A stretch of 60,524 bases of DNA, from IMG/VR virus record IMGVR_UViG_3300032156_000008, positions 1 through 60,524 of that record. One strand, 5' to 3'. This DNA comes from a virus. The translations under genes were made by a program, and so were the position numbers. Below the pieces are notes generated by a model. The model saw nothing but the letters and a program-made list of their open reading frames with translations. It ran no database searches and had not been told where the DNA came from. This document shows positions 3,492 through 51,303 of the stretch, piece by piece (positions within the stretch are counted from its first letter, which is position 1; every line of letters begins with the position of its first letter).

Positions 3492-6228
3492 GAGCCGTGT
3501 CCCTCCACCCCGTGAACACCTCGGGGGCGATGTACCTCTGGAGCGCCACGGTCGGGGTATTGCCCAGTCTGGCCGCAACCTCCTTGGCGACGGCCCTCAC
3601 CGACCTCTTGTAGGCCGTCTTGCTCGTGGGCGCCTCCGTGCGGGCGATGATCGACTTGGCGGTCGACGTGCCGAGGTAGGTGCGGAAGTCCTTCGTCTTG
3701 AAGCCCCCGCCGTCGAGGCCGTGGGCGTATTCGGAGAGCTCACTCGGCCCGACGGTGGGGAAGAGCTGCCCGTCGGGTCCGACGGCGCCCGCCCTCTCGA
3801 CGAGCATATCGGCGACGGACTTGTCGCCCACGGGGACGTCGGCGGCGACGCCCTTCTTGCCGACGAACTGGAGGCGGACGCCCGTCTCGGTCTCGACGAC
3901 GTGCCTGCCCTCGAGGGTCGTCGCCCCGTAGGCCCTGACCTCGCCCCTCGTGTCCTTCTCACTACCCGGCCGAATCCCGGTCTCCACGACGAGGGCCATG
4001 AGGTCGGCCCTCTCGCGGAGCTCGGGGTCCTGACGGTCGGCCCGGATCTGGCCGCGGACGCCGTCCATCTTCTCGTCGAGCTCGGAGATCCTCGCGAACT
4101 TCGCCGCCTGCTGCTCCGAGTCGTAGCGCTCGGAGTAGATGTACTGGGTCCGCCCCTTCTTGTCGTGCCCCTTCACGAGGAGATCCCCCTCGGGGTCGGG
4201 GTTGACCACGACGTCCGTCCACGCGGGCGGGATGCCCAGCGACTGGATGTGGGCGGGGGCCGGGGCTCCGTCGGCGGTGACCCACGCCTTGCCCGAGCGC
4301 GTGACGCCCACTGAGGGGCCTCCTCCCGAGGACCACTTGCCGCTCTCGTCGCGGGACATGTCGGGATTGTAGGCCTCGTGACCGGCCTCGAAGACGTGGG
4401 TCTTCTCACTCTTCCACCTCAGCCCCGTCTTGTACTCGAGCCCGCGGGTGGGCGCCCACTCCTTCGTGGCGGCGAGGATCTTCGCGTTGTCGTAGCCTCC
4501 CTCCCCGTGGCCCTTCTCCGCGAGGGCGTATATCTCCTTCTTTGTCGCGGCGAGGAACTTGGGCTTGTCGACGACCTCCATGGTCGCCATCGCCCCGCTC
4601 CTCGTGATCACCGCCATCTTCTCGTAGTAGCCGCGCTCGACCGACTGCTTGAGGCCGTAGATATCGCCCTCGGAGAACGCCGCCGCTGAGTCGGGGTCGT
4701 CCCCGACCTCGCCCGAGTGGCTGTGGACGGAGACGAGGCGCGGCCTCTCCTCGGGCGGGACGCTCTCGAGGTCCTTCCGCGAGTAGATCTTCCCAGACTG
4801 CGGCTCCACGAAGAACTCGGTCGCGGCGGTCGTCTGAGAGCCGAACCCGTGATACAGCCTGCGGGAGTCCTCACCGATCGCTCTGGCGATGCCACCGGCG
4901 AGCGCGCTCCCTCCTGAGGAGAACTTGCCCCTCTCGTCTCGGGACATGTCGGGGTTGAACGCGGGGTGGCCCGGCTGGAACACGCTCTCCTGCGCCGCCC
5001 TGACGACTGGCTTCCCGTCGCACTCGCACTTCGGGTGGACGGGGATCTCGGGGAAGTCGTCGATCGGGTAGATCCCGGGGCCGTAGCCGACGTCGGCCTC
5101 GGCGAGGGCGGCGCAGTCCCCGCAGGCCCTGTCCCCGAGGAGGTACTCCATCAGCTCGACGCCCTCGTCCGCGTATCTCTCCTTCTCTCCGATGTGGACG
5201 AGGCGGGACATCTCCGTCTTGGCGGTCAGCTCGGGGTCGTGCGCCTCCGTGTCGATGACGCCCCGAAGGTCTCTGGCGATCTCGCGGGAGCCCCTGCCCT
5301 CGCGGATGCCCGCCTCGATGGCGTCCACCACGGCCCCTCGGGCCGCGGTCGTTCCGTCTCGGAGCCACGGGGTGAACTCCCCCTGAATCGTCGTGCCGCC
5401 GCGGTTCTCCATGTCGTCGCGATACCTCTGGGCGAAGGCGACGGCCCGAGAGTAGTTCAGCTCCTCATAGTCTGAGCCGAGGCGCACCGCGCCCCTCCTG
5501 TCGCCCGCGAGGTAGGCGTCGATGCCCGCCTTGGCGAGGGTGCGGGCCAGCCCGATCTGGTACTCCTCGAAGGCCATGCCGATCGCCCGCACGGTCTTCG
5601 GGGGGACGAGTCGGCCCGCGTGCGCGTGGTCCCCGAGGACGGAGAGGAGGTCGGAGACGATGCTCGCGCACAGGGCGTGCGAGGACGGGAGCCTCTCGTC
5701 GACGACCCCCATCACGGCGGGGTCGCCCCCAGTCCAGTCGGCGAGCATGCCCGCCTTCATCTCGGGGTGGAACTGGACCGCCATCGCCCTGTCGCGGACC
5801 CAGCCGACCACGCGCCCGCGCCGGTCCCTCCAGACCGCCGTGGCCCCGGGCGGCATCGTGAACGACCAGTCGTGCCACTGAAACACGGAGAACACTCGGC
5901 CCGACGGGTCTCTCACGGAGTCCCACCCATACACTCGATCTCGGACGGTGCGCCCCCCGAGGGCCAGCGAGATCGCCTCGCCCCCGAGGCAGATGCCGAG
6001 GAGCGGCACCCCGAGGGCCACGCAGTCGGTGATGAGCCCCCTCTCGTCGATCGCCCACGGGCGCGTCTCGACGGGCTCCGTGCCTCCCATCAGGATCACG
6101 GCGTCGCCCTGTCGGACGTCGATCGGGAGCTCGCCCTCGTCGGCGCGGACGATGTGGAGGCCGCCCACGAGGTCGGCGATGCGCCCGGGGCCTCCCCCGG
6201 GGGCGTGGGCGACGACGTGGATAGTCAT
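3484..6228 (-). CDS. Four-domain head protein: class I amidotransferase - MuF - JAMM-like - topoisomerase IB
   Basis: 914 residues, ATGA-coupled to the portal gene. (1) Residues 1-185: class I glutamine amidotransferase fold with nucleophile Cys80 in GICLGG and His154/Glu156 in FHPE. (2) About 210-410: MuF/SPP1 gp7 head-morphogenesis domain with the typical CGDC...HPKCEC tail. (3) Linker tag FNPDMSRDERGKFSSGG at 424-440, then a JAMM/DUF4329-like domain with H502, H504, S519 and D522. (4) A second tag at 620-637, then a bacterial-type topoisomerase IB domain: IPPAW, Arg753 in GIRPG, GKKG near 790-793, Arg849 in KDFRT, and Tyr899 in LGNTP...RY. Catalytic residues of the amidotransferase and topoisomerase look intact. 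MuF proteins are minor capsid components, so the extra enzymes are probably packaged with the DNA. The fusion is unusual and could be cleaved at the tags. Confidence 0.85.
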   Translation of the reverse strand: MTIHVVAHAPGGGPGRIADLVGGLHIVRADEGELPIDVRQGDAVILMGGTEPVETRPWAIDERGLITDCVALGVPLLGICLGGEAISLALGGRTVRDRVYGWDSVRDPSGRVFSVFQWHDWSFTMPPGATAVWRDRRGRVVGWVRDRAMAVQFHPEMKAGMLADWTGGDPAVMGVVDERLPSSHALCASIVSDLLSVLGDHAHAGRLVPPKTVRAIGMAFEEYQIGLARTLAKAGIDAYLAGDRRGAVRLGSDYEELNYSRAVAFAQRYRDDMENRGGTTIQGEFTPWLRDGTTAARGAVVDAIEAGIREGRGSREIARDLRGVIDTEAHDPELTAKTEMSRLVHIGEKERYADEGVELMEYLLGDRACGDCAALAEADVGYGPGIYPIDDFPEIPVHPKCECDGKPVVRAAQESVFQPGHPAFNPDMSRDERGKFSSGGSALAGGIARAIGEDSRRLYHGFGSQTTAATEFFVEPQSGKIYSRKDLESVPPEERPRLVSVHSHSGEVGDDPDSAAAFSEGDIYGLKQSVERGYYEKMAVITRSGAMATMEVVDKPKFLAATKKEIYALAEKGHGEGGYDNAKILAATKEWAPTRGLEYKTGLRWKSEKTHVFEAGHEAYNPDMSRDESGKWSSGGGPSVGVTRSGKAWVTADGAPAPAHIQSLGIPPAWTDVVVNPDPEGDLLVKGHDKKGRTQYIYSERYDSEQQAAKFARISELDEKMDGVRGQIRADRQDPELRERADLMALVVETGIRPGSEKDTRGEVRAYGATTLEGRHVVETETGVRLQFVGKKGVAADVPVGDKSVADMLVERAGAVGPDGQLFPTVGPSELSEYAHGLDGGGFKTKDFRTYLGTSTAKSIIARTEAPTSKTAYKRSVRAVAKEVAARLGNTPTVALQRYIAPEVFTGWRDTAHA

Positions 6229-19134: not shown

Positions 19135-19250
19135 TAGCCGCTCCTCCTTAGCTTCATAGTCAGCCGCCGCACCGGGTCGGGCGCCACGTAGGTGGGGCAC
19201 CCTCCCTTCGGCAGCCTCTTCGCGTCGCGCCGACGCTGCGCTCTGCTCAT
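19134..19250 (-). CDS. 38-residue basic peptide
   Basis: MSRAQRRRDAKRLPKGGCPT and onward, very Arg/Lys-rich. ATGA overlap with the methyltransferase-like gene upstream and TAATG overlap downstream support translation. Unknown. Confidence 0.45.
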   Translation of the reverse strand: MSRAQRRRDAKRLPKGGCPTYVAPDPVRRLTMKLRRSG

Positions 19251-19810
19251 GGCCCCCTCCTCAGAATGGTCGCGCACCGAACCCGGTGGTTCGTCGACTG
19301 CGACAGCCCGATCGTGCCCGCGAGGGACCACCCGTCCGACTTGGACCATATCGGGATGACCGTGTCGAGCCAGACGAGATACCCGCCCGGCTCCACCGCC
19401 CCCGAGCACGCCCTGACGATCTTCCTCCTGTTGATCGGCGCGGTCCCGTAGCGGACGTGCTGACCCTCGTAGGGCGGGTCCGCGAGGACTAGGTCGAAGG
19501 CCGCCATGAGATCGCCGACCTCGGCCGCGTCCATCGCGAGGTCCGCCCCCGCCTCGGGCCGAATGTCCAGCGTCGTCTCGTGCTTGGTCGACTCGATCGA
19601 GCCCGAGAACAGGTGGAGGACTTGTCCGCGCCCGAACTCGTCGGGGAACAGGAGGCGCATCCTCTTGAGATACCCCGGCGGGTAGGTCCCGTAGAGCCTC
19701 GACCTGTTCCTGTAGTCCGCCCCGACGAGCCAGAACCCGCAGGCGACGCCGTTGTGCTCGACGAGCGGCGACAGCGGCCCCCGGCTGGCGTTATAGTGCT
19801 CGACGTTCAT
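19247..19810 (-). CDS. Small DNA methyltransferase-like protein (DPPY)
   Basis: 187 residues from ATG 19810. A Rossmann-like fold with LHLFSGSIES (motif I-like) and FDLVLADPPYEG (motif IV, the DPPY of amino-methyltransferases). It lacks an obvious target-recognition domain and is short. Possibly an N6-adenine or N4-cytosine methyltransferase. ATGA-coupled to the 45-residue gene upstream. If adenine is replaced by diaminopurine in this virus, its substrate would be unusual. Confidence 0.65.
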   Translation of the reverse strand: MNVEHYNASRGPLSPLVEHNGVACGFWLVGADYRNRSRLYGTYPPGYLKRMRLLFPDEFGRGQVLHLFSGSIESTKHETTLDIRPEAGADLAMDAAEVGDLMAAFDLVLADPPYEGQHVRYGTAPINRRKIVRACSGAVEPGGYLVWLDTVIPIWSKSDGWSLAGTIGLSQSTNHRVRCATILRRGP

Positions 19811-19944
19811 AGCCCCTCCGAGTCGGCGATCTGGAGGAGGTCCTCGACGAGCTGGTCGTCCGACCAGCACGCCATGCGCGAGAAGTCCTTCTTCCTCTGA
19901 TGCAGCCTCGTCGCGGTCTTTCTCTTTATCCTTATCCACACCAT
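19807..19944 (-). CDS. 45-residue hypothetical protein
   Basis: Starts MVWIRIKRKTATRLHQRKKD at ATG 19944, directly after the upstream TAG, and ends with a CTATGA overlap onto the methyltransferase gene. Basic N-terminal half, acidic helical end (DDQLVEDLLQIADSEGL). Unknown. Confidence 0.45.
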   Translation of the reverse strand: MVWIRIKRKTATRLHQRKKDFSRMACWSDDQLVEDLLQIADSEGL

Positions 19945-20130: not shown

Positions 20131-20354
20131 ACGGACCCCCTCGGCGAGCGCTGGGCGCCCACCCAGTGCACGATGCGAACCCCGTCGACGCCACGACTAG
20201 CGAGGCGCGCGACCCTCTGCCCGACCATCTTGTTCGTCATCCTCAGCCTGCGGGCGATAGCGCCCGTCGATATGAAGACCCTCCCCGCCGACGCGGCCTC
20301 CTGCTTCAGGAGGTTCTCGATCAGGAACGACGGATACGGGTCGGCCCTAGCCAT
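20106..20354 (-). CDS. Winged-helix DNA-binding protein
   Basis: 82 residues from ATG 20354. A helix-turn-helix (FISTGAIARRLRMTNKMVGQ) precedes a beta hairpin (GVRIVHWV...GSVWLVEA), a compact winged helix. It overlaps the end of the methyltransferase gene by 8 bases. Probable transcriptional regulator or accessory to the methyltransferase. Confidence 0.6.
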   Translation of the reverse strand: MARADPYPSFLIENLLKQEAASAGRVFISTGAIARRLRMTNKMVGQRVARLASRGVDGVRIVHWVGAQRSPRGSVWLVEATA

Positions 20355-21405
20355 ACAGTCTCTCCACAATCCCCTGCGCGTAGTCGTGCCTGAGCTCGAT
20401 CGACACCGAGTTTCGCCCCAGCCTCTTGGCGACGGCCGCCACCGTGCCCGACCCGGCGAATGGGTCGAGGACCCACCCGTCGAGGGGGCAGCTCGACAGG
20501 ATAAGCGGCTCGACGAGGTCCTCGGGGAACGGCGCGACGTGCCCGCCGTAGCTCTTCGACGCGAGGTGGACAGTCCACACGGTGTCTCTCTGCCGTCCCT
20601 TGGGGTCTCCCCAGACGCGCTTCCCCTCGGAGAACTGAGATCCCCCTCTGATGCACCTCGGCTCGCCCCCGGCGTTCCTCACTCGAGGCTTGGTCTTGAG
20701 CGGGATTCTCGTCGCGTCGAGGTCGTAGTAGCACCGGGCGCTCTTCGTGAGCTGGAACACCTGCTCGTGAGCCCTAGTCGGGCGGTCGCGCACGGACTCG
20801 GGCTTGTGGTTCGGCTTGTGCCAGATGTTCTCCGAGCGCAGCCACCACCCGTCGTCCCTGAGCGCGAACGCCGTCATCCAAGGCACGCCTATGAGGTCCT
20901 TGTTCTTCAGCCCCACGACGCGGGTCAGTCGCGAGGAGAATCCCTGACGTCCCTCCTGCCCCTGTATGCCGGTGCGCCCCGACGGACCCTTGCCGCTCCC
21001 GCTGTAGCAGTCTCCGATAACGAGCCACAGGGTGCCCGACGGGCGCAGCGCCCCCCGCACCCCGCGGAAGGCCTCGACGAGCCTCTCCACGTAGGCCTCG
21101 GGGGTGGTCTCGGACCCGACCTCACTGCTCACGAAGACGGCGCCACACTTGGAGCACGACGGAGCAGGGTGAGAGTCCGGGAATCTCGCCTCCTTTGGGT
21201 TGGTCCCGGACCCTCCCCTACCTCTCCTCGACTTAATCGTGTCGTGCTCGCACTCGGGGTCGCCCCCGACCCACTCGCCGATGCCGTAGTTCCTGAGCCC
21301 GTAGTAGGGCGGCGAGGTGATGCAGCAGTCGATGGACTCGTCACCGATCATCGCCAGCCCGTCCATCACATCGCCCTCGATCACGACGTGCTCCGTCTCA
21401 GCCAT
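20347..21405 (-). CDS. DNA amino-methyltransferase (SPPY type)
   Basis: 352 residues. CCITSPPYYGLRNYG gives the SPPY motif IV near the N-terminus, and DPFAGSGTVAAVAKRLGRN near the C-terminus gives the AdoMet-binding motif I. This is a permuted (beta-class) arrangement of N4-cytosine/N6-adenine methyltransferases. A CxxC pair (CSKCGAVF) lies between. No restriction partner is nearby, so it is probably an orphan enzyme for self-protection or regulation. Overlaps the polymerase gene by 8 bases. Confidence 0.85.
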   Translation of the reverse strand: MAETEHVVIEGDVMDGLAMIGDESIDCCITSPPYYGLRNYGIGEWVGGDPECEHDTIKSRRGRGGSGTNPKEARFPDSHPAPSCSKCGAVFVSSEVGSETTPEAYVERLVEAFRGVRGALRPSGTLWLVIGDCYSGSGKGPSGRTGIQGQEGRQGFSSRLTRVVGLKNKDLIGVPWMTAFALRDDGWWLRSENIWHKPNHKPESVRDRPTRAHEQVFQLTKSARCYYDLDATRIPLKTKPRVRNAGGEPRCIRGGSQFSEGKRVWGDPKGRQRDTVWTVHLASKSYGGHVAPFPEDLVEPLILSSCPLDGWVLDPFAGSGTVAAVAKRLGRNSVSIELRHDYAQGIVERLYG

Positions 21406-23875
21406 CGTACACCTTCTCCAGCTCGCCCCAGCTCGGCCCCGTCTGAATCTCGACCGAGAACGGGACCTCCGTCTCGAATGGGACGTGATGCATCTTGTTC
21501 ACCGTCAGGTCCCTCGCCTCCCTGACCGCGCCCTCCGGCACCTGAAAGTAGAAGCCGTCGTGCACGTGCGGCCATAGAAGGACCGGGATTCTCCTCGCGT
21601 CCAGCTCGTCGACGACGGCCATATAGGCGAGCAGGGTCATGTCCGAGACGGCGGACTGGACGGGGAAGTTAACCGCCTGACGCTGGATCTCGGCGGCGTG
21701 CCTCCTGTCGATCACCAGAGGGAATCTCCTCTTGCGACCAAAGATGGTCGTGACCTCCCTCTCGCGCATGACGAGGGCGTGCTGCCGGGATATCCACCGC
21801 CTGACGCCGGGCATCATCGAGAAGAAATCCCTCATCATAACCTCCGCCTCCCGCGCCGTCACGCCCATCTGTGGCGCGATCGACTTGGCGCTCCGCCCAT
21901 AGATGAGGCCGAAGGTAATCGTCTTGGCCGCTCTCCTCTTAATCTCGCGCTCCTCGCCGGGCATCGCGTCGAGCTCGTCGTCGGTCAGCCTGAACAGGCG
22001 CTTGGAGATGGCGCGGTGAATGTCGTGCTCTCCGAGGGCGCGAATGAGGGACTTATCGCCGGCGAGGTGCGCGACCATCCGCACCTCCGCCTGACTGTAG
22101 TCTGCCGACACGATGCGGAACCCCGGGTCCGCGACGAAGATGCGCTTGATCTCCTTCCGTCGTGGCATGCCGTGGATGTTGGGGTCGGTCGAGGACAGGC
22201 GCCCCGTCCGCGTGCCGTGCAGTCGATACCGAGGCCGGATTCGGCCCTCGTGGTCCATCAGCCTGACGTAGCCGTCGTGGTAGGCGCCATACTGCTTGGC
22301 CAGCAGCCTGTGGCGCACCATCATCCTCGGGAACTCGTGCTGCTGGGCGAGCCACCACAGCATATACGTCCCCGTTGAGTGATCGCTGAGTCGCTTCGCC
22401 TGCGCCGTCCGCCAGAACTCCTGCGCGTCCTCGTCGGCGATATCGGCGGTCAGTACCGCCACCACGTCGGGGGCGATCACCCCGTCCGCCGCCGCCCCGG
22501 GCATCGGCGCGAGCCCGAGGGTATCGTAGAGGAACTCACGGACCTGCTTCGACGAGCGGAGGTTCAGGCCCTCGGCGCCGGGGTAGGCGTGCAGCCCCTC
22601 CTCGATCTGAAGGATCTCCGCCATCCACCTCTTGCCCGCGTCCTTGAGGTAGTCGGCATCGACGAGCATGCCGTCCCTCTCGAAGCGGATGAACAGTCTC
22701 GCCGCGGGCAGTAGGATGCGATCGTGGACCGCCGTCACGCCCTCCTCCTCCATGGCCTCTCGCAGGAGGAACTTCAGTCGGTGCGTGTAGTAGGCATCGG
22801 CCCCGTTGTAGCGCATAACGGTGTCGCGGAAGTCGGGGTCGTCGCGCCACTGCTCGACGGTGAGCTCCAGAGGGAGCTTCCTCCCGTCCTCGTCGGTGCG
22901 TCTGAGTTCGGCGTCATATTCGGGGGCCGCGAAGGCCGCGGTCGCGAGCTTCTTCAGCCCGTGGCTTCCTCTCCTCTCGTCGACGCAGTAGTGGGCCAGC
23001 ATGGTGTCGAAGACGAGGCCGGCCGGGACTCCGTTGGCCCACAGCCACCCGAGATCAAACTGGCAGTTGTGGAACACGCCCTCGCAGCCGTCCATCGCGC
23101 CCGCGACTAGTCCGCGCATCCGCTCGTCGGCCCACACCCAGTCGAGGACCATGACCTGATCGGGCTCTGGCCCCTCGCCCCACGCGAACGCGGACGACAG
23201 GATGGAGCCCTCGTCGGGGTGCAGTCCCTCCGTCTCGAGGTCGATGGAGACCTCTCCGCCCTCCTTCAGTCGAGCCAGCAGGGCGCGGAACGTCGGCTTG
23301 CTGCGGACCATGACGAACTGATCGTAGGGCGGCTCGACGACGGGCTCGACGCCCCCCGCCGATATGCGCTGGGCGAGGGCCACGTCGTTGACGAGGTCCC
23401 TGAATCCGTCCGGAGCCCGCAGGATGCCCGCGGGGTGCAGGCTGGGGACGACGCCGCACACCTCGGTCTCGACGTATATCCCGCGTCTCTTTGTGATCCC
23501 CGTCGCGCCACCGAGGAGGGAGTTTAGGGCCGTGTTCCCGAGGGCCATGATAACCCTCGGCTGGACGGTCTCCAGCTCCTCTATTAGCCTACTGTGGCAG
23601 GCGTTGACCTCATTCCTCTTCGGCGTCCTGTTGCCCGGCGGGCGGCACAGGCAGGCGTTGGTGTAGTAGACGCGGGACGTGTCCACCCCGAGCCCCGATA
23701 GGATCTCGCGCAGGAGGCGGCCGGCGCGCCCGACGAACGGCTCGCCCTGCTCCAGCTCCTCCAGCCCCGGGGCCTCTCCGACGAAGGCGATGTCGGGCCT
23801 GCGACTGCACCCGCTCGGCGGAACGAGCTTCGCCCTGTCGAGGGTGCAGCTATCGCAGTCCCCACACGTAGTCAT
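21398..23875 (-). CDS. polA: Family 4 uracil-DNA glycosylase fused to family A DNA polymerase
   Basis: 825 residues from ATG 23875, overlapping the PurZ/PurA gene by 26 bases. Residues 1-180 form a UDG family 4 domain: Fe-S-type cysteines (CGDCDSC, CLCRPPGNRTP, EVNAC), GEAPGLEE with PFVGRAG, and the HPAGILR motif. A 3'-5' exonuclease follows (SIDLETEG, FHNCQFDLGW, YNGADAYYT). The polymerase has motif A SADYSQAEVRM, motif B RRAAKTITFGLIYG and motif C HVHDGFYF, where the usual HDE is HDG. SPO1 polymerase also has a UDG-like N-terminus. PolA beside a PurZ-family gene is a hallmark of diaminopurine phages (DpoZ). Confidence 0.92.
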   Translation of the reverse strand: MTTCGDCDSCTLDRAKLVPPSGCSRRPDIAFVGEAPGLEELEQGEPFVGRAGRLLREILSGLGVDTSRVYYTNACLCRPPGNRTPKRNEVNACHSRLIEELETVQPRVIMALGNTALNSLLGGATGITKRRGIYVETEVCGVVPSLHPAGILRAPDGFRDLVNDVALAQRISAGGVEPVVEPPYDQFVMVRSKPTFRALLARLKEGGEVSIDLETEGLHPDEGSILSSAFAWGEGPEPDQVMVLDWVWADERMRGLVAGAMDGCEGVFHNCQFDLGWLWANGVPAGLVFDTMLAHYCVDERRGSHGLKKLATAAFAAPEYDAELRRTDEDGRKLPLELTVEQWRDDPDFRDTVMRYNGADAYYTHRLKFLLREAMEEEGVTAVHDRILLPAARLFIRFERDGMLVDADYLKDAGKRWMAEILQIEEGLHAYPGAEGLNLRSSKQVREFLYDTLGLAPMPGAAADGVIAPDVVAVLTADIADEDAQEFWRTAQAKRLSDHSTGTYMLWWLAQQHEFPRMMVRHRLLAKQYGAYHDGYVRLMDHEGRIRPRYRLHGTRTGRLSSTDPNIHGMPRRKEIKRIFVADPGFRIVSADYSQAEVRMVAHLAGDKSLIRALGEHDIHRAISKRLFRLTDDELDAMPGEEREIKRRAAKTITFGLIYGRSAKSIAPQMGVTAREAEVMMRDFFSMMPGVRRWISRQHALVMREREVTTIFGRKRRFPLVIDRRHAAEIQRQAVNFPVQSAVSDMTLLAYMAVVDELDARRIPVLLWPHVHDGFYFQVPEGAVREARDLTVNKMHHVPFETEVPFSVEIQTGPSWGELEKVYDG

Positions 23876-24923
23876 AGTAGTCTCCACCTCCCAGTGTGCG
23901 CAGAGCTCCCCTTTGGACGCCATCGGATATGAGCCTGACGGGCACGCCGAGCCACGAGTGGATCTTCTCGGCGAGCTCGGACCAGTGGCACGACGTCGTG
24001 CGCCCCGTGCAGTCCACGAACGGGACCGAGCTGAGGTGCTCGGCGATGTCCATGTGAGTCACGGCGATCGAGTCGACGCCGTTCACCCAGCAGGCGCGAT
24101 GGATGGCTCGGAGGTCGAGGATACCGATGCGCCTCGGGCGCCCCGTCGTCGTGCCATACTCGTGGCCCTCCTCGCGAATATAGTTCTCGACGGCTGGCGC
24201 GAACGACTGGGTGAACGGCCCCGCGCCTATCCTCGTCGAGTAGGGCTTCATGACGCCCACGACGTGCCGAATCTTCCTCGGGTCGAACCCGCCGCCCGTG
24301 CCGACGGCGCCGATGCCGCACGACGACGACGTCACGTATGGGTAGGCTCCGTGGTCGATGTCGAGCTCGAATCCGTGGGCGATCTCGAACAGGATGCGAA
24401 ACCTCGCCTCGTGCTTCGACAACGCCATGAACGTCACGTCGACCATCCGCGCCCTCAGGGGTCCGTCCTCTGTACCCTCGAACCTGACGCCCACCCTGCG
24501 AGACTTATCCGCGTAGGCGGGACCATTGCCAGTCTTGGTCGTCCCGATCGCGAACTCTCCTCTGGCTCTCTCGGCGATGGCGTCCTCCTCTTTGTGGCGA
24601 GGGAGGATGAGATGAGCCGCTCTGTCTATGAAGAGCCTCTCCATGACATTGACCCCGAGGGCCTCGGCGTCTGCGATCTCCTTCTTCAGCTTCTCGACGT
24701 CGATCACCGCGCCCGGGCCGATGGCGAGGAGTGCCTTGGTGAAGACACCCGACGGGAGCTGGTGCACGGCGAAGGACCCTCCGCCCTCGAGCGGGATGGT
24801 GTGCCCGGCGTTCGCCCCGCCGTTCACCCTGACGACCATGTCCGCCTCCTGCGCCAGCCAGTCGACGACGCGGCCCTTGCCCTCGTCGCCCCACTGGAGC
24901 CCCATGACCGCGATCGCCGTCAC
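23850..24923 (-). CDS. purZ: Adenylosuccinate synthetase family, archaeal/PurZ type
   Basis: 357 residues from GTG 24923 (GTGA overlap). The N-terminal loop GLQWGDEGKG carries Asp13, the PurA catalytic base that, to my knowledge, is usually replaced in phage PurZ. RVNGGANAGHTI follows. The length is that of short archaeal PurA and PurZ, not of the ~430-residue bacterial enzyme. PurZ joins dGMP and aspartate to make the precursor of 2,6-diaminopurine deoxynucleotide, while PurA makes AMP from IMP. Context (PolA, MazG, ribonucleotide reductase) favours a PurZ or PurZ0-like role; the retained Asp favours PurA. The symbol is provisional. Confidence 0.8.
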   Translation of the reverse strand: MTAIAVMGLQWGDEGKGRVVDWLAQEADMVVRVNGGANAGHTIPLEGGGSFAVHQLPSGVFTKALLAIGPGAVIDVEKLKKEIADAEALGVNVMERLFIDRAAHLILPRHKEEDAIAERARGEFAIGTTKTGNGPAYADKSRRVGVRFEGTEDGPLRARMVDVTFMALSKHEARFRILFEIAHGFELDIDHGAYPYVTSSSCGIGAVGTGGGFDPRKIRHVVGVMKPYSTRIGAGPFTQSFAPAVENYIREEGHEYGTTTGRPRRIGILDLRAIHRACWVNGVDSIAVTHMDIAEHLSSVPFVDCTGRTTSCHWSELAEKIHSWLGVPVRLISDGVQRGALRTLGGGDYYDYVWGLR

Positions 24924-25720
24924 TCGTAGGCCCCCCGGGCGACCACGGCCTTCCATCGTCTGAGGTTCGTCGCGAGTCTGTCCGCCCTCCAGAACCCGAC
25001 CGGCCCACCCTCCCCGGCCCTCTGCACCCTGACGTCCATCGGGGGGTCGAAGTCGAGGTCCACCCTCGGTCGCGGCGCCTCCCCGAGGACCAGCCCGGCC
25101 TGCGTGTATATGGCGGCGATGCCCGAGTCGCAGCCCCGTATGCGCCCGGGCAGTCTCTGCTCCGTCCGCCAGATCTCCGTCGGGTCGCTACCCAACACCC
25201 CGAGGAGGTGGAGATCGAGGTCGCTGTCGACGAGACCCGGGACGTTCTCGATGGCGTCGGCGCGACAGGCGACCTTGCCCTCGAGGAACTTGGTGATGCC
25301 CATCGCCGTGACTCCGTCCGTCACCTCCGCGGCCCTCAGCATGTGGGAGGCGCAGGAGATCCACTCCTCGAGGGTCTCTCCCTGCGGGATGGCCATCGTC
25401 TCGAACCCCGTGGACTTGTCCCACTGACTAACCGCCGAGCGGAACAGGGCGAGGGTCGCCCGCCTGTCGTTGATCGAGTCGGGCAGGCAGACCTGAGTCG
25501 GGTGGACGGCATCGGCGAGCGCGAACAGCTCCGCAGTCGGCTTGGCGAACCCGGTCTCGACGACGCCGTTGTCCATGAGGACGAAGTGCCCCATCTGCGC
25601 CTGAGCGACGAAGAAGTCTCGGTAGGCTCGGTGGTGCAGGAGGTGCGCGAGGCACATGTGGTAGTCGTCGCTGCCCACCAGAGGCAGGAACGGTATCGGC
25701 AGGATGGTGGCTACTCTCAT
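24920..25720 (-). CDS. dpdA: DpdA-like 7-deazaguanine DNA transglycosylase (TGT superfamily)
   Basis: 266 residues, ATGA-coupled to ribonucleotide reductase and GTGA-coupled to the PurZ-family gene. The order of motifs matches viral DpdA proteins: CLAHLLHHRAYRDFF, then FVLMDNGVVETG (residues 47-57), CLPDSINDRRATL, IPQGETLEEW (111-120), MGITKF, and LHLLGVLGSDPTEIW. DpdA exchanges guanine in DNA for a 7-deazaguanine base. FolE, QueE and QueD in the same operon would make the base. The match is by pattern from memory, so a structure comparison is needed, but context strongly supports it. Confidence 0.8.
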   Translation of the reverse strand: MRVATILPIPFLPLVGSDDYHMCLAHLLHHRAYRDFFVAQAQMGHFVLMDNGVVETGFAKPTAELFALADAVHPTQVCLPDSINDRRATLALFRSAVSQWDKSTGFETMAIPQGETLEEWISCASHMLRAAEVTDGVTAMGITKFLEGKVACRADAIENVPGLVDSDLDLHLLGVLGSDPTEIWRTEQRLPGRIRGCDSGIAAIYTQAGLVLGEAPRPRVDLDFDPPMDVRVQRAGEGGPVGFWRADRLATNLRRWKAVVARGAYE

Positions 25721-27423
25721 ACGCCGCACGCCTCGCAGTAGACGCCCTCGCCCGACTTGTCCCGATACGCGGTGACGCCCTTGCACCCCTCGTCGTAGGC
25801 GAGGCGATAGATGATCTCGAAGTCCTCTGGCGTCGCCGCCTCGGGGAGGTTCACGGTCTTCGACACCGACGCGTCGACGAAGGCCTGAATCGCCGCCTGC
25901 ACGGAGACGTGCTCGAACGGCGTGACCTCCTTGGCCGAGACGAAGGCCGACGCGTGGGCCAGCGGGTGCTCCACGACGTGGCACCCGGTCGCGTCGGTCC
26001 TCGTGTATTTGGCCGCGAAGATCGGCTCGATGCCGCTCGACGCGCCCGCGAGGGTGCTGGTAGTCCCCGTGGGTGCCTGCGTCAGCAGGGTGAGATTGCG
26101 GATGCCATATTCGGCGATGGCGTTGCGGACGTACTCGGGCAGCGTCTGAGCGAACCCCGAGTCGAGGAGCTGGGGCGTGTACCCGGGCGCCGGCCCGAGC
26201 TCCTCGGCGAGGGACGCGCTCTTCATATACGCGGTGTCCCGTATGAACTCGTAGAGGTCGCCGATGAAGTCGATACTGCGCGAAGACCCATATCTGATGC
26301 CGTGCAGGATGAGTACGTCGGCGAGGCCCATCGTGCCGAGGCCCACCCGCCTGCACGCCGCCTGCTCCGCCGTTATGCGTGCGTCGACCGGGGCGCTCAC
26401 GTCGACGATGCGGTCGAGGAACTCGACGGCGTCGCCCACGCAGTCGCGCAGCGCCTCCTTGTCGAGCGCCCCCGCGGGCTCGTCCCAGAAGGCGGTGAGG
26501 TTGACGGCTCCGAGGTTGCAGCAGCCGTCCTCGGGCAGGGGCTGCTCCCCGCACGGATTGGTCCCGACGATGCGCCCGCGATACCACGTGTTCGACGCCC
26601 TGTGGCAGCGATCCATGAAGACGACCCCCGGGCTCCCGATGGCGTGCGCCGACTCGGCCATGTCCGCCCACATCATCGACGCGGGCAGGCAGTCGTGCTC
26701 CTCGACGTCGCCGCTCCAGACGTGGTTTCCACCGCACCAGTCGCGGTTGTAGTTCGGGTCGTCGGTCCTCGGAAAGATGGTGTGCCAGTCGCGCCCGGCC
26801 GCGAGCGCCCCCATGAAGGCGTCGGAGATACCGAGGGAGAAGTTGGCCCTCAGAAATCTCGCGCGGGTCCGCGCGAAGTCGGGCGCGTCGGGGTGCCAGT
26901 CGTCGAGCATGAACATGAGGGCCGCCGTCCTCGAGCCGCCCTGACGGATCTGGTTGGACAGGGCGTCGGCCCCGCGCATCCAGCCGTTCGGCCCGGTCGA
27001 GTTGCCGTCGACGCCGCGAATGTAGGCGCCGGCCGGCCTGAGGGCGGACCAGTTGATGCCCACGCCGCCCCCTCTGGCGTTGATCTCCACCATCCTCGTC
27101 ATCATCCGCATGATCGCCACTCTGCTGTCGCACCCGTGGTGGCCCGTCGGGTCGCGGGGGCCGATGACGAAGCAGTTATAGAGGGTGGCCGACGCCTTGC
27201 CCCCGGCCCCGGCCAGTATGCGCCCACCGGGGACGAAGGCGAACTCCCCCATCCAGTCGGAGAACCTGCCGGCCTGCTCGGGGTCGCGGGCCACCGCGTT
27301 GCAGACGCGGGCCACGGTCTCCCCGTAAGAGGTCTCGAGCTCGCGCCCGTCTGGTCTCTTTAGCGCGTATCGGTCGAGGAAGACCTTGTGGCGATGCCCG
27401 TCGTACTCGAAGATCTGGTGCAT
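25717..27423 (-). CDS. nrdJ: Class II (B12-dependent) ribonucleotide reductase
   Basis: 568 residues, TGATG overlap with the MazG fusion upstream. Catalytic barrel features: Cys84 in TLYNCFVIG, GGGVGINWS, Cys291/Glu293 in NPCGEQPLPEDGCCNLGAVNL, and a C-terminal CEACGV pair for reduction by thioredoxin-like partners. It lacks class I partner genes, as expected for the adenosylcobalamin enzyme. It makes deoxynucleotides, including the dGDP/dGTP pool that feeds purine modification. Monomeric class II enzymes are common in phages of hosts with B12. Confidence 0.93.
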   Translation of the reverse strand: MHQIFEYDGHRHKVFLDRYALKRPDGRELETSYGETVARVCNAVARDPEQAGRFSDWMGEFAFVPGGRILAGAGGKASATLYNCFVIGPRDPTGHHGCDSRVAIMRMMTRMVEINARGGGVGINWSALRPAGAYIRGVDGNSTGPNGWMRGADALSNQIRQGGSRTAALMFMLDDWHPDAPDFARTRARFLRANFSLGISDAFMGALAAGRDWHTIFPRTDDPNYNRDWCGGNHVWSGDVEEHDCLPASMMWADMAESAHAIGSPGVVFMDRCHRASNTWYRGRIVGTNPCGEQPLPEDGCCNLGAVNLTAFWDEPAGALDKEALRDCVGDAVEFLDRIVDVSAPVDARITAEQAACRRVGLGTMGLADVLILHGIRYGSSRSIDFIGDLYEFIRDTAYMKSASLAEELGPAPGYTPQLLDSGFAQTLPEYVRNAIAEYGIRNLTLLTQAPTGTTSTLAGASSGIEPIFAAKYTRTDATGCHVVEHPLAHASAFVSAKEVTPFEHVSVQAAIQAFVDASVSKTVNLPEAATPEDFEIIYRLAYDEGCKGVTAYRDKSGEGVYCEACGV

Positions 27424-28340
27424 CAGCGATACCCCTTGTCCCACATCGTGCGGGCGAGGTCCGCCACCATCATCGCCCTGTTCGCCACGTCGGCGGCCTC
27501 GGCGATCACGGCGTCTCGCTTCTCGGCCGTGGCGGGGCCGTCGATGAATCTTCGGACGGCGTCTCCGAGCTCGCGATACTCGGCGTCCACCTCGCCGAGG
27601 AGGACGTTCAGCCCCTCCCCGAGCCACCCGCCCTTCGAGGCTCTGGCGAGCAGCTTCGTCTCCATGTGGCCGTAGAACCAGAGGAGCGTACCCCTGTCGA
27701 TCGCGAACTGCGGGTATCTCCACCTGACCGGGAGCCCGAGCCGCCACGCCAGACGGATCTCCTCCGACGTGCTATGCCCGACGTAGCCGTCGACGTTCAC
27801 GACGTAGATAGAATCGCTCATGCGTATCTTCGCCTTGTGGAGTGCGTCGAAGGCGGCCTTCTCGGCGGCGTCGGGCGCCCACTCCTCGGCGTGCGGAAAT
27901 CCACCGACGGAGAGGACTGCCTTGCCCTCCCTCTCCAGCTGGAGTATGGCCTGCTCCGTCGCGGCCTTGAATCTCGTCGAGCCGCACACGGTCACGACCT
28001 CGGGCCTGCTGGCCTCCCCTCTGGTGACCATCGCCCCGTGGCGGTCGTCCTCGTTGACGGTCACGGCGTCGGCCCTCGGCGTCGAGTCGAGGATGGCGAG
28101 GGCGATGCTCTCGCAGGACATGTCGCCGAACTCGCCGAACGGCGCCATCGCGTCGAGGGCCGCGTCGAGCTCCTCTCTCAGGCTGTGCAGCTCGATCTCT
28201 CTCTCAGGGCCTCCGACGCTGACGGCTATGCCGACCTCGAACTCGTGGTGGTGGCGCTCCCTGAGGTATGACCTCGTGTCGGGCGCCCCGGGCCAGCGGT
28301 GGAACCCGTCCTTCTTCGTGGATACCTGTAGTCTAATCAT
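27423..28340 (-). CDS. Three-part fusion: PTPS-like, nucleoside 2-deoxyribosyltransferase-like, MazG
   Basis: 305 residues, ATGA-coupled to folE. Residues 1-95 look like a reduced 6-pyruvoyl-tetrahydropterin-synthase (T-fold) domain: HHHEFEVGIAVSV and SCESIALAIL echo the HGHTYR and PTAENL regions of QueD. Residues ~115-215 match the deoxyribosyltransferase/DUF4406 fold (VTVCGSTRFKAATEQAI, SDSIYVVNVDGYVGHSTSEE). The C-terminal ~85 residues are MazG-like (EVDAEYREL...EAADVANRAMMVADL) with the acidic metal motif. A MazG dGTP pyrophosphohydrolase (MazZ) supplies dGMP to PurZ in diaminopurine phages. The PTPS-like call is tentative. Confidence 0.7.
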   Translation of the reverse strand: MIRLQVSTKKDGFHRWPGAPDTRSYLRERHHHEFEVGIAVSVGGPEREIELHSLREELDAALDAMAPFGEFGDMSCESIALAILDSTPRADAVTVNEDDRHGAMVTRGEASRPEVVTVCGSTRFKAATEQAILQLEREGKAVLSVGGFPHAEEWAPDAAEKAAFDALHKAKIRMSDSIYVVNVDGYVGHSTSEEIRLAWRLGLPVRWRYPQFAIDRGTLLWFYGHMETKLLARASKGGWLGEGLNVLLGEVDAEYRELGDAVRRFIDGPATAEKRDAVIAEAADVANRAMMVADLARTMWDKGYR

Positions 28341-28924
28341 CTCTTCACTCCCTCCTCGATCAGTCGGAGGAACTCCGCCCTCGTCTTCGGATCGTCCTTG
28401 AAGAGGCCGCGCATGGCGCTGGTCACCGTCTTGGACCCCGGCTTGTTCACGCCGCGCATGGTCATGCACGTGTGCTCGGCGGCGAGGATGACCCCGACGC
28501 CCCTCGGCTTGACGTGCTCCATGAACGCGTCCGCGATATCGCTCGTCATTCTCTCCTGAAGCTGGAGTCTCCTCGCGTAGCACTCGATCAGTCGGGGGAT
28601 CTTGCTGATACCGAGTATCTTGCCGTCCGGGATGTAGCCGACGTGAGCCGTCCCGATTATCGGCAGCATGTGGTGCTCGCACATCGAGAAGAACGGGACG
28701 TGCCCGACGACGACCATCTCGTCGCTCCCAGACTTGAATGCCCTCCCGAGGATAGTGGACGGGCTCTGCTCGTAGCCGCGATACAGTTCGCGCATGGACC
28801 TCGCCACTCGGTCGGGCGTGTTCCGCCTCGCCTCCTCGTCGATGCCGTCGATCGAGATGGTCATGAGGAGCTCGACGATCAGCTCCCTGACCCTCGCATC
28901 TCTCTCAGACGCCACGGCGGTCAC
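28337..28924 (-). CDS. folE: GTP cyclohydrolase I
   Basis: 195 residues from GTG 28924, overlapping queE by 20 bases. Zinc ligands Cys82 and His85 in MCEHHMLP and Cys153 in HTCMTMRGV are all present, as is the substrate-binding LQERMTSDI. It converts GTP to 7,8-dihydroneopterin triphosphate, the first step of 7-deazaguanine synthesis and of folate. Its place beside QueE and QueD points to the deazaguanine role. Confidence 0.95.
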   Translation of the reverse strand: MTAVASERDARVRELIVELLMTISIDGIDEEARRNTPDRVARSMRELYRGYEQSPSTILGRAFKSGSDEMVVVGHVPFFSMCEHHMLPIIGTAHVGYIPDGKILGISKIPRLIECYARRLQLQERMTSDIADAFMEHVKPRGVGVILAAEHTCMTMRGVNKPGSKTVTSAMRGLFKDDPKTRAEFLRLIEEGVKR

Positions 28925-29573
28925 CCCATATCAGTCTGTGCAGCTGGGGCAGGAACCTGACGCCCCGCCCCCACTCGGGGTCGGACGCGACGTGCTCGGC
29001 GAGGTTCGCCAGCCCGTATGGGTAGAGGGACTTGGCGCAGTCGTAACCCGGCTGGATGGTCATCGGCACGTCGGGGAACTGCTTGTGCAGCGCCTTCGCC
29101 AGCCTGTAGTCTGCCCCGTCGAACACGACGTATTTCAGCTGGACGTCGGCCAGCATCTGCGTGTCGTTCACGGCCGCGACCGCCGCCGCGAGGTCGGCCT
29201 CGAAGGCTATCTTCGGGCAGATGGTCACGAGGACTACGTCGCGGAGCCAGTAGGGGACGACCGTGCCCTGTGTCTCCACGTGGACCTCGCGCCCCCTGAG
29301 CTTCAGCTCGTGGACGAGCTCCCCGCAGTCGTGGATGCACGGGTTGCCGCCCGTCAGGACGACGATCTTGGCGTGGGCCAGCGCCTCGACCGCGGACACG
29401 ATCTCCGCGGCGGTCATCCTGTGACCCCCGCCCCTCGCGTACTTGGTGTCGCACCATACGCAGTCTGAGTCGCACCCAACGGTGCGGACGAAGACCGCGC
29501 GCCGCCCGACGTGGATGCCCTCGCCCTGAAGGGTCGGGCCGAAGATCTCCGAGATCGGTATCGTCGAGTCCAT
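28905..29573 (-). CDS. queE: 7-carboxy-7-deazaguanine synthase (radical SAM)
   Basis: 222 residues from ATG 29573, TGATG overlap with queD. Radical-SAM cluster motif CDSDCVWC (Cys34, Cys38, Cys41), preceded by SEIFGPTLQGEG, the canonical QueE N-terminus, and followed by LTGGNP and HVETQGT. It converts CPH4 from QueD to 7-carboxy-7-deazaguanine. All core motifs intact. Confidence 0.95.
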   Translation of the reverse strand: MDSTIPISEIFGPTLQGEGIHVGRRAVFVRTVGCDSDCVWCDTKYARGGGHRMTAAEIVSAVEALAHAKIVVLTGGNPCIHDCGELVHELKLRGREVHVETQGTVVPYWLRDVVLVTICPKIAFEADLAAAVAAVNDTQMLADVQLKYVVFDGADYRLAKALHKQFPDVPMTIQPGYDCAKSLYPYGLANLAEHVASDPEWGRGVRFLPQLHRLIWGDRRGV

Positions 29574-29929
29574 CACGACCACGCCTCCGCGAAGGAGTCC
29601 GCCGTCTCGTACAGCCTGATGCTCACCAGCTGAAGCCCGAGGGGGAGGGCGGAGATAATCTCGTCGGCGAACACCTCGACGAGGTTCTCCGCCGTCGGCC
29701 TCGTGTTCGGGAACATGTCGTTCAGGACCTTGTGGTCGACTCTGTCGAGGACGGCCCTCTGGACCATGACGTCGAAGTCGCCGAAGTCGAGCACCATCCC
29801 GTTCGGCTTGGCCTGCCCGCGGATGCGGACCTCCATCCTGTAGGTGTGCCCGTGCATCCCGGCGCACTTGCCCGGGTGGTCGGGGAGGAAGTGGGCCGCG
29901 TCGAAAGTAAACACCTTGCCGATGATCAC
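29573..29929 (-). CDS. queD: 6-carboxy-tetrahydropterin synthase
   Basis: 118 residues from GTG 29929 (GTGA overlap with the HTH gene). Zinc/active-site pattern: His13 in FDAAHFL, Cys22 and HGH (26-28) in KCAGMHGHTY, a GMVLDFGD strand, the VDHKVLND segment and PTAENLVE. It makes CPH4 for QueE. Full-length for the family and apparently functional. Confidence 0.94.
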   Translation of the reverse strand: MIIGKVFTFDAAHFLPDHPGKCAGMHGHTYRMEVRIRGQAKPNGMVLDFGDFDVMVQRAVLDRVDHKVLNDMFPNTRPTAENLVEVFADEIISALPLGLQLVSIRLYETADSFAEAWS

Positions 29930-30114
29930 GCGCCCCGCCCCCTCGTCTCGAACGCCTCGACGGCCTCGGGCCGCACCCGCCACTGCCTCTTGATCTTGAA
30001 GCCCTCGAGCCTCTTCTCACGGAGGAGGGCGTGGACCGTGTGGACGCTGACGCCCAGCTCGGTCGCCACCTCCGCCGACGTGAGCGCCTTCTCGCGCTCC
30101 TTCTTCTCGTTCAT
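29926..30114 (-). CDS. Excisionase-type helix-turn-helix protein
   Basis: 62 residues, ATG 30114 preceded by AGGAG. LTSAEVATELGVSVHTVHALLREKRLEGFKIKRQWRVRPEAVEAF is the HTH_17/MerR-like excisionase fold. No integrase is present, so it is more likely a transcription factor. Being first before queD-queE-folE, it may control the modification operon. Confidence 0.75.
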   Translation of the reverse strand: MNEKKEREKALTSAEVATELGVSVHTVHALLREKRLEGFKIKRQWRVRPEAVEAFETRGRGA

Positions 30115-33566: not shown

Positions 33567-34925
33567 TTATTCTCCGATAATGTCTCTGGCCGCGAGAATC
33601 CCTGACGTCGCCGCGGCCACGAGCGAGTCGAGGTATCCTGATGCGTTCCCGATCACGTAGAGGCCCGGCACGTCGACGCTCTGCCACCCCGGGGTCAGCG
33701 CCACTCTCGGCGAGTAGTACTTGACCTCGGGGGCGTAGACGACCGAGAACTCCCCGATCACCCCGGGGACGAGCCTATCGAGGGTCAGGATGTAGTCCCT
33801 GTAGTCCCTCGCCAGCCCGTCGATCCCGTCGAGGCACCGCCCGATGTCCACTCGGGGGCGTGCCTGATTGTTAGTGATAAACTCGTTGTGCATGATCGAC
33901 GTGCCCATCGTCTTGCGCCCGCAGAGGAAGTCCTCCACGCGCTGCACGACGGTGTGCCCGCCCGCCTCCCCATTGACCGCTCTGGCCAGACCCACGACCA
34001 TGCCCTGTGGGTCCTCCGTCATCGCCGTCGTCACCTTCGCCATGATAGCAAAGTTGGACGACTCCGTCTTCATCGTCGGGTTGAGGAACGAGTGCCCATT
34101 CACGTTCCGCACGCCGAGGCTCGCGTGGTTCTCGTTGAGCACGAAGCCGCGGTTGTTGCAGCAGAAGGAGCGCAGGCGACCCCTCTCCATCTTCCAGTCG
34201 TAGAAGGCGTCGAAGAGGGGCGCGAGCGCGTCGGCCGGCGCCTCGAGGCGGAGGGCGATGCCGGCCGGCCCCGGCTTGAACGAGCAGCCGAGGCGCACCA
34301 GCTCGTCGTGGAGCCACGGAGCGCCGTCGAGGCCTGTCGCCGCGACCACCACGTCTCCGAATAGCACACCCCCGTCGCTCAGGGCGACCGACGGGGCGTG
34401 GCCGTCTCTTATCACGATCGAGGCCGCCTCCGTGGCGTCGATAAACTCCACGCCGAGCTCGAAGAGGTCTCGCCTCATGTTGTCGGCCCATCGGCGGATG
34501 CCGTCGGACCCGAGGTGGCGGAGCGGGTAGCTCGAGAAGACGAACCCCAGTCGGCTGAACTCGGGATACATCATCGACTGCTTGCCATCGAAGACGACCC
34601 CGCCGCCCCCGGCGTAGGCCGCCACGGAGGCGTCGACCTCTCGCATGATGGACACGTCCTCGGGCCTGAAAAGGTCCTCGCCCTGTGTCCCCCGCCCGAC
34701 GCTGATGGTGTTCTTCCCGTCGGAGAGCCCCCCGGCGCCCCCCGTTCCGCACAGGATGGCGCACGGCTTGCAGTCGCACTCCTCCGTGGCCGGGCACTCG
34801 CGGCTCCTCATGCCGTAGCCCTTCTCGACGATCACGACGCCGATATCGGCGTCTGCCCTCTTGAGCTCCCACGCGCAGTACATCCCCGCCGGGCCGGCCC
34901 CGACGATAGCGACGTTAGTCCTCAT
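33567..34925 (-). CDS. FAD-dependent dehydrogenase, COG2509-like
   Basis: 452 residues. N-terminal dinucleotide fold VAIVGAGPAGMYCAWEL, then a Cys-rich segment (CPATEECDCKPCAILCGTGGAGGLSDGKN) and a C-terminal GLYVIGNASGYLDSLVAAATSGI flavin motif. The pattern fits the uncharacterised FAD dehydrogenase family COG2509, which is chromosomal in most genomes. Its place between the SSB-like and Sak4-like genes in a virus is unusual. It could be a redox step of a base modification, but nothing in the sequence shows its substrate. Confidence 0.75.
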   Translation of the reverse strand: MRTNVAIVGAGPAGMYCAWELKRADADIGVVIVEKGYGMRSRECPATEECDCKPCAILCGTGGAGGLSDGKNTISVGRGTQGEDLFRPEDVSIMREVDASVAAYAGGGGVVFDGKQSMMYPEFSRLGFVFSSYPLRHLGSDGIRRWADNMRRDLFELGVEFIDATEAASIVIRDGHAPSVALSDGGVLFGDVVVAATGLDGAPWLHDELVRLGCSFKPGPAGIALRLEAPADALAPLFDAFYDWKMERGRLRSFCCNNRGFVLNENHASLGVRNVNGHSFLNPTMKTESSNFAIMAKVTTAMTEDPQGMVVGLARAVNGEAGGHTVVQRVEDFLCGRKTMGTSIMHNEFITNNQARPRVDIGRCLDGIDGLARDYRDYILTLDRLVPGVIGEFSVVYAPEVKYYSPRVALTPGWQSVDVPGLYVIGNASGYLDSLVAAATSGILAARDIIGE

Positions 34926-50788: not shown

Positions 50789-51303
50789 GGACTCCCTCCG
50801 TCGTAGACCTCTCCCACGAGGGCCTCGGCCTCGATCTCGACCTGCGGGCCGCCCTCCCTGTGGTAGCGGAAGACGAAGTGGAGGGAGTAGTGCCATATCT
50901 GCGTGGCCTCCTCGGGGACTAGTCCGCCCCCGACTCTCTCCCACCCGTGCGTCTCGGCGACGTAGTCCGTCGGGTTGAGCAGGATCTCCTTGATCTTCTG
51001 CGCGATCGCGTCGGCGTCCTCTGGTAGGTTCGGCGGTGCGGAGTCGCCCCACGACACCCACACGTCGATCTGCACCGACGGCATACTCTCCCAGACTATC
51101 GCGTGGGGGACAGACCACGAAGCGACCCCGCCGGGGAACGGATCGTCCCTCTCCCCTGACTCCTTCACCGTCACCGACGGGACCTTTATCGGGGCGATTC
51201 GACTGAACCTGAATATGCGCGACTCGTCTCCTCTCAGCATGGCCACGAGGGCGTCGCTGGCCCTCAGCTTGGCTATGATGCCGTCGTATATGCTCGGCTT
51301 CAT
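50785..51303 (-). CDS. Minor tail / tail completion-like protein
   Basis: 172 residues. Helical start (IYDGIIAKLRASDALVAMLRGDESRIF), then beta strands including SVQIDVWVSWGDS and IWHYSLHFVFRYHRE, the layout of phage tail-completion (gpU/gp17-like) proteins. It lies after the HK97-gp10-like gene, which fits. Assigned by position and pattern. Confidence 0.55.
   Translation of the reverse strand: MKPSIYDGIIAKLRASDALVAMLRGDESRIFRFSRIAPIKVPSVTVKESGERDDPFPGGVASWSVPHAIVWESMPSVQIDVWVSWGDSAPPNLPEDADAIAQKIKEILLNPTDYVAETHGWERVGGGLVPEEATQIWHYSLHFVFRYHREGGPQVEIEAEALVGEVYDGGSP

Follow-up and report, generated by a model that had tools for sequence, protein, structure and literature searches.

A conserved operon of a bacterial virus, probably for 7-deazaguanine DNA modification, carries a QueD-like T-fold domain and a PurA-type rather than PurZ-type enzyme

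Introduction

Does a single bacterial virus modify both purines of its DNA? The question is raised by an operon on the minus strand (21398-30114) of a 60,524-base viral record from IMG/VR (IMGVR_UViG_3300032156_000008, hereafter the window), in which genes for the synthesis of 7-deazaguanines lie together with a PurA-family gene, a MazG-like domain and a DNA polymerase A (PolA). An earlier note on this DNA had interpreted the operon as a 7-deazaguanine gene set joined to a 2,6-diaminopurine gene set. We found that the 7-deazaguanine half of that interpretation held, with FolE, QueD and QueE intact and an enzyme of the tRNA-guanine transglycosylase (TGT)/DpdA fold in the same operon, and that the diaminopurine half did not. 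The operon very probably swaps guanine in the viral DNA for a base of the 7-deazaguanine kind. Taken as a whole, a deazaguanine DNA modification that runs without QueC and is accompanied by an ordinary-type PurA is the explanation we favour, and we consider it likely.

Results

The genes follow one another along the minus strand in the order helix-turn-helix (HTH), QueD, QueE, FolE, a MazG-containing fusion, NrdJ, DpdA-like, PurA family, and a fusion of uracil-DNA glycosylase (UDG) and PolA, with overlaps of 1-20 bases at nearly all junctions. From QueD to UDG-PolA this order was identical in four other IMG/VR contigs (3300035701_000315, 3300002220_000297, 3300047196_000048, and 3300002163_000343; all fragments), with pairwise identities of 34-80% to the window proteins. 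Since the same order recurs in four further contigs at such identities, the operon is a conserved unit that neither coincidence nor faulty assembly accounts for. Open reading frames (ORFs), profile models, and the relatives bore out the genes, coordinates, order, and strand given in the earlier note. Its gene identities also stood, while two of its labels needed refinement: three domains make up the "MazG-containing fusion", and the "PurZ/PurA family" protein is PurA-type.

Three genes make up the entry to the deazaguanine pathway. QueD, a 6-carboxytetrahydropterin synthase of 118 residues (29573-29929, minus strand, as are all window genes below), scored 94 bits to TIGR03367, above the cut-off; its GTG start overlaps the HTH stop, and its Cys and HGH motifs are intact in sequence. 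QueE, the radical S-adenosylmethionine 7-carboxy-7-deazaguanine (CDG) synthase (28905-29573), carries the CxxxCxxC motif and scored 181 bits to TIGR03365 (cut-off 206) and 136 bits to the PHROG QueE model. FolE, GTP cyclohydrolase I (28337-28924), scored 214 bits to TIGR00063, above the cut-off.

The 266-residue DpdA-like protein (24920-25720) had no sequence match in Pfam, NCBIfam, or the PDB. Its AlphaFold model had a predicted local distance difference test score (pLDDT) of 93, and in a Foldseek search of the PDB the 22 best matches to it were all TGTs, the next being the DNA preQ0 insertase DpdA (7ui4). VIA-align superposed the model on TGT with Z 17.5 over 229 residues and on 7ui4 with Z 16.8 over 236 residues, so that the comparison with DpdA proposed in the earlier note did find the TGT/DpdA fold. 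Asp50, Asp81, Gln113, and Asp198 were invariant in 16 viral sequences. By motif order, not by residue-level superposition, these resemble Asp102, Asp156, Gln203, and Asp280 of TGT. Homologues adjoin QueD-QueE-FolE in Cellulophaga phage phi13:1, Weizmannia phage Youna2, and several metagenomic viruses. On the strength of the model, the invariant residues, and the gene neighbours, we concluded that this protein is a DpdA-type guanine transglycosylase, whose action on DNA is predicted from the genomic context.

QueC was not found by search in the window or in the four relatives, which are fragments. The position it would fill in the pathway appears to be taken by the first domain of the 305-residue fusion protein (27423-28340). 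PDB sequence searches with the fusion protein returned no relative; its AlphaFold model (pLDDT 88) resolved three domains, which were matched one by one with Foldseek and VIA. Domain 1 (residues 1-106, at 28023-28340, with the end also placed at residue 108) is a QueD-like T-fold and a candidate enzyme acting on CDG. It superposed on E. coli QueD with VIA Z 14.0 and a root-mean-square deviation of 2.1 A over 106 residues. In a comparison of 14 sequences, the zinc-type His14, His30, and His32 were invariant, as was Cys76; the catalytic Cys that precedes HGH in QueD was not present, Cys76 being a different one. Other viruses mostly encode the T-fold in a gene of its own, found together with the DpdA-like gene.

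We compared 19 DpdA-like records for the presence of the two genes. The T-fold occurred in 15 of them, QueC in three, and neither in one (a 9.6-kb fragment); no record had both. The chance of that split would be 4/969 (0.004) if the records were independent, and since they are related this overstates its strength. That a T-fold gene stands in for QueC in 15 of the 19 points to further processing of CDG by a route that does not use QueC, and the simplest reading of the sequences is that the T-fold domain acts on CDG in QueC's place. A predicted CDG decarboxylase, DpdL, was reportedly described together with a DpdA3 subfamily by Cui et al. in 2023. Isolate phages with a T-fold gene near QueE or FolE were Pseudomonas phage Paride, Chryseobacterium phage MA9V-3, and Vibrio phage Bakedbeans. 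Jumbo phages such as Paride also have the T-fold gene; in Paride (L243, 6001-6378) it is annotated as hypothetical, and a QueE-like gene lies 1.3 kb away.

The same observations bear on what base reaches the DNA. With no QueC in the window or its relatives, CDG itself could be the base used, or the product could be preQ0 or an amido-deazaguanine completed by a host QueC. CDG has been considered for Mycobacterium phage Bipper, where it is QueC alone that is absent (PMC6884629), and the reaction of the T-fold is itself a prediction. Against these products stands the conserved T-fold gene that replaces QueC in 15 of the 19 records, and we regard them as possible, though somewhat doubtful. A different route to an amido-deazaguanine was also considered. 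A 914-residue ORF of the window (3484-6228) combines topoisomerase IB with part of a Mu F-like head protein and a class I glutamine amidotransferase domain that looks intact (Cys80, HPE). This candidate was rejected, as the amidotransferase forms one protein with the head and topoisomerase parts, and none was found in the four relatives.

The other two domains of the fusion protein resemble enzymes of nucleotide metabolism. Domain 2 (residues 111-216; 27693-28010) is similar to nucleoside 2'-deoxyribosyltransferase (NDT) and DNPH1, with VIA Z values of 9-11 to NDT, DNPH1, and MilB and 12.6 to 1t1j. NDT enzymes have a Tyr-Asn-Glu catalytic triad; here Glu194 and Asn182 were invariant, and the sequence, judged without superposition, has no Tyr where the first strand begins. 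Domain 3 (residues 213-305; 27426-27704) is a MazG-like pyrophosphohydrolase by motif and helical match: ExxE (254-257) and ExxD (281-284) were invariant, the helices matched 2p06 with Z 10.3, and no similarity to the MazZ of S-2L, MazZ being the dGTP-specific MazG, was found.

Which kind of PurA-family enzyme the operon encodes was examined by residues, models, and phylogeny. PurA makes adenylosuccinate from IMP, aspartate, and GTP, whereas PurZ/PurZ0 turns dGMP into succino-2-amino-dAMP. The gene (23850-24923, GTG start) encodes 357 residues. In all 147 phage PurZ and PurZ0 proteins, Ser replaces the catalytic Asp13 of PurA (PMC12884076). Asp13 was kept in all five operon PurAs, and Ser was present in seven of the seven PurZ/PurZ0 references that we checked. 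The selectivity of PurZ, which has a deoxyribo preference, has been ascribed to a displaced Arg303 and to a loop inserted behind Val273 (PMC8342488); Arg303 was kept and the insertion did not occur in any operon PurA. Also kept were Asn38, His41, Thr129, Arg143, Thr239, Thr300/Thr301, and Asp333, which include the IMP-phosphate and aspartate-loop residues of PurA. The window protein scored 326 bits to the PurA model and 143 bits to the NCBIfam PurZ model, for which the cut-off is 300. Its sole PHROG match was PHROG 1211, labelled "2-aminooxy adenylosuccinate synthetase". In a tree that included an archaeal PurA (Pyrococcus horikoshii), the operon PurAs grouped as a single clade (100/100), which a 100/100 branch set on the side of bacterial-type PurA. 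Residue 13, the model score, and the tree thus ruled out membership in PurZ/PurZ0, and a joint clade was rejected in an approximately unbiased (AU) test (p = 7e-6); in a smaller AU test that left out the archaeal PurA, a clade with PurZ was not rejected (p = 0.06). The phylogeny against PurA, PurZ, and PurZ0 that the earlier note had called for therefore placed the protein with cellular PurA, the phylogenetic half of the outcome that the note had named as a refutation, and its name PurZ is not upheld. Judging from these features, we infer an adenylosuccinate synthetase of the ordinary type, which would convert inosine monophosphate (IMP) to adenosine monophosphate (AMP).

Two side observations concern this family. 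The window PurA is without about 36 residues of a small helical region that is kept in the relatives, and archaeal PurA and PurZ are likewise without them. A plasmid-borne PurA homologue of Sinorhizobium medicae pSymA (NZ_CP140895; L212, 6001-7038) has Ser for Asp13, the PurZ signature in a bacterium, and was placed with PurZ0 with weak support.

The distribution of PurA was informative as to its origin. In the viruses L131 and L141, the DpdA-like gene is followed directly by PolA without PurA between them, and PurA was not found in any of 12 DpdA-like virus records outside the lineage of the window. Most likely, therefore, the PurA gene joined a deazaguanine module that was already in place and does not form part of a diaminopurine set.

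One residue of the operon PurAs is unusual. Position 224, which lines the base pocket and corresponds to Gln190 in S-2L PurZ, was His in five of five operon PurAs (His183 in the window protein), whereas each of the 104 other PurAs that a motif matched has Gln there. When viral contigs were scanned by pattern and by profile for further PurAs with His224, the known operon relatives alone were returned. A departure at the same position was found in a PurA of Rhizobium leguminosarum plasmid NZ_CP030762, which has Asn. That gene lies in a cluster (L200, 7375-15715) with the order FolE-PurA-PurB-QueE-IMPDH-nitrile hydratase-QueC-HAD-phosphoribosyltransferase-QueD. By the pathway logic of PMC6112128, this order reads as a 7-deazaadenosine cluster of the toyocamycin/sangivamycin type. 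The folE-purA(-purB) portion of the cluster is found on several R. leguminosarum plasmids. The two departures hint at a possible link between a deazapurine base and a change at position 224, but the PurAs belong to different lineages and the virus is without the other enzymes.

If so, the operon PurA might act on a 7-deazapurine (deoxy)nucleotide in a toyocamycin-like manner, the NDT-like domain joining the deazapurine base to deoxyribose phosphate and PurA aminating position 6, to give a deazaadenine-type base in the phage. The His at 224, seen in no other PurA checked, the departure of the Rhizobium PurA at the same position, and the presence of an NDT-like domain would fit such a scheme. 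However, a single substitution is weak evidence, DpdA-type insertion requires no nucleotide, and neither PurB nor IMP dehydrogenase/GMP reductase was found in the window or in the four relatives, which are fragments. The operon PurA also did not group with the Rhizobium PurA. A ToyG-like lineage for it was rejected, since the tree put the Rhizobium protein on the archaeal/PurZ side and the best PDB matches of that protein were archaeal PurA. When further ToyG proteins were sought in 297 genomes from the class of a Micromonospora, the best matches were all PurA-type proteins of ordinary length. We therefore regard a deazapurine substrate as unlikely.

The deazaguanine genes might also serve tRNA (queuosine) metabolism or host takeover instead of DNA, FolE, QueD, QueE, and TGT-fold enzymes being common to the tRNA pathway. 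Yet the transglycosylase is short (266 residues) and adjoins viral DNA polymerases in several lineages, and its relatives are found within phage gene sets for 7-deazaguanine, which makes a role in tRNA very unlikely.

The remaining members of a diaminopurine set were sought in the window. The polymerase gene (21398-23923, with a start at 23923 or 23875) encodes a fusion of family-4 UDG, 3'-5' exonuclease, and DNA polymerase A that is 59-80% identical across the four relatives. It scored 94 bits (cut-off 500) and 49 bits (cut-off 350) to two DpoZ models, and is thus not a DpoZ by model score. No similarity to DatZ, MazZ, DutZ, or DmtZ was detected by a Pfam YfbR-like search, blastp, or phmmer in this record, which may be incomplete; the YfbR-like search was negative in the four relatives as well. 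The explanation with the slightest chance of all is the one from which the question arose, namely that the PurA/PurZ-family gene, MazG, and PolA serve to put diaminopurine in the place of adenine while guanine is replaced by a deazaguanine: a PurA-family gene, a MazG-like domain, and PolA do share a conserved operon with the deazaguanine genes, and the label of PHROG 1211 points the same way, but with Asp13 and Arg303 kept, no PurZ loop insertion, PurZ and DpoZ scores far below their cut-offs, a PurZ/PurZ0 clade rejected, and no DatZ, DutZ, or DmtZ found, a doubly modified purine genome is not supported.

Further genes lie within and around the operon. The first operon gene (29926-30114) encodes a small HTH protein of 62 residues, read as an ORF, with a counterpart at the same place in the relative L003 (2804-2986). 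NrdJ, a class II (B12-dependent) ribonucleotide reductase (25717-27423), scored 480 bits to TIGR02504, above the cut-off. An N4/N6 DNA methyltransferase gene (20347-21405; PF01555, 144 bits) overlaps the PolA gene and is not at the corresponding place in L003; a second ORF (19247-19939) carries a DPPY motif. Elsewhere in the window, a protein encoded at 49781-51118 has the N-terminal domain of the major tropism determinant (Mtd_N), as in the targets of diversity-generating retroelements, and no reverse transcriptase was found among the proteins scanned. An FAD-dependent dehydrogenase-like protein (33567-34925) had no PHROG match and was 57-80% identical in the four relatives.

Discussion

The operon can be explained by a single course of events directed at guanine. 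FolE, QueD, and QueE would convert GTP to CDG, and the T-fold domain, in QueC's stead, would process CDG further, with decarboxylation to 7-deazaguanine as the likeliest reaction. The DpdA-like enzyme would then exchange guanine for the deazaguanine base in DNA after replication, for which UDG-PolA would be responsible. NrdJ and the MazG-like and NDT-like domains may provide nucleotide supply and clean-up, and PurA would be a viral enzyme of the IMP-to-AMP type, inserted between DpdA and PolA in one lineage.

Several points weigh against this explanation. The homology to known DpdA consists of fold and conserved residues, with the Pfam and PDB sequence searches empty. The co-occurrence counts of T-fold and QueC are not phylogenetically independent. 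The absence of QueC could reflect incomplete records, or the host may supply QueC. Lastly, all five PurAs have His at the base-pocket Gln position, which suggests that their substrate may not be IMP.

The findings have consequences beyond this virus. Without the Ser13 signature, a PurA-family gene beside MazG and PolA should not be taken as a diaminopurine set. The QueD-like T-fold becomes a candidate replacement for QueC in a widespread group of 7-deazaguanine phages. Were a deazapurine to prove the substrate of PurA after all, the virus would make a second modified purine by toyocamycin-like, not PurZ-like, logic.

Comparison with known systems places the operon more closely. Like the phage 7-deazaguanine system FolE-QueD-QueE-QueC-DpdA (Hutinet et al. 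2019, PMC6884629), the window has FolE, QueD, QueE, and a TGT-fold enzyme in one operon. It differs in being without QueC and in having a QueD-like T-fold, an additional PurA, and an NDT-MazG fusion, and its DpdA-like protein has no PDB or Pfam sequence match. Another related system is the set of Cellulophaga phages phi13:1/phiST, composed of QueD, QueE, FolE, MazG, the T-fold protein gp034, a kinase, and the DpdA-like gp036. There the T-fold matched the N-terminus of the fusion protein at 2.5e-8 and the DpdA-like homologue matched at 2e-10, and the whole genome of phi13:1 has no QueC, as in the window. In phi13:1/phiST, however, the genes are separate, and neither PurA nor a class II ribonucleotide reductase is in the cluster.

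With the Z-genome system (PurZ/PurZ0, DatZ, MazZ, DpoZ, DutZ, and DmtZ; PMC8342488, PMC12884076) the window shares a PurA-superfamily protein, a MazG-like domain, an NDT fold, and PolA. It departs from that system in the PurA-type active site and phylogeny, in a PolA that is not DpoZ by model score, and in having no similarity to DatZ, DutZ, or DmtZ. The DmtZ-DutZ fusion of Arthrobacter phage Wayne converts dATP to dAMP and then to adenine (PMC12884076), and there too an NDT-fold domain of N-glycosidase type is joined to a dNTP pyrophosphohydrolase in one protein. The fusion in the window has a MazG-like domain in place of dUTPase and an extra T-fold, and shows no sequence similarity to it. 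This resemblance in architecture suggests that a nucleotide-clearing design has been reused by phages of different chemistry. As for the Rhizobium toyocamycin-type cluster, it likewise combines FolE, QueD, and QueE with a PurA-family protein, and both PurAs are non-Gln at position 224, whereas the virus is without PurB, IMP dehydrogenase/GMP reductase, and QueC, and its PurA is of a different lineage. Together, these comparisons would place the system as a variant of phage 7-deazaguanine modification that does without QueC and has, besides a T-fold/NDT/MazG fusion, an extra enzyme of PurA type.

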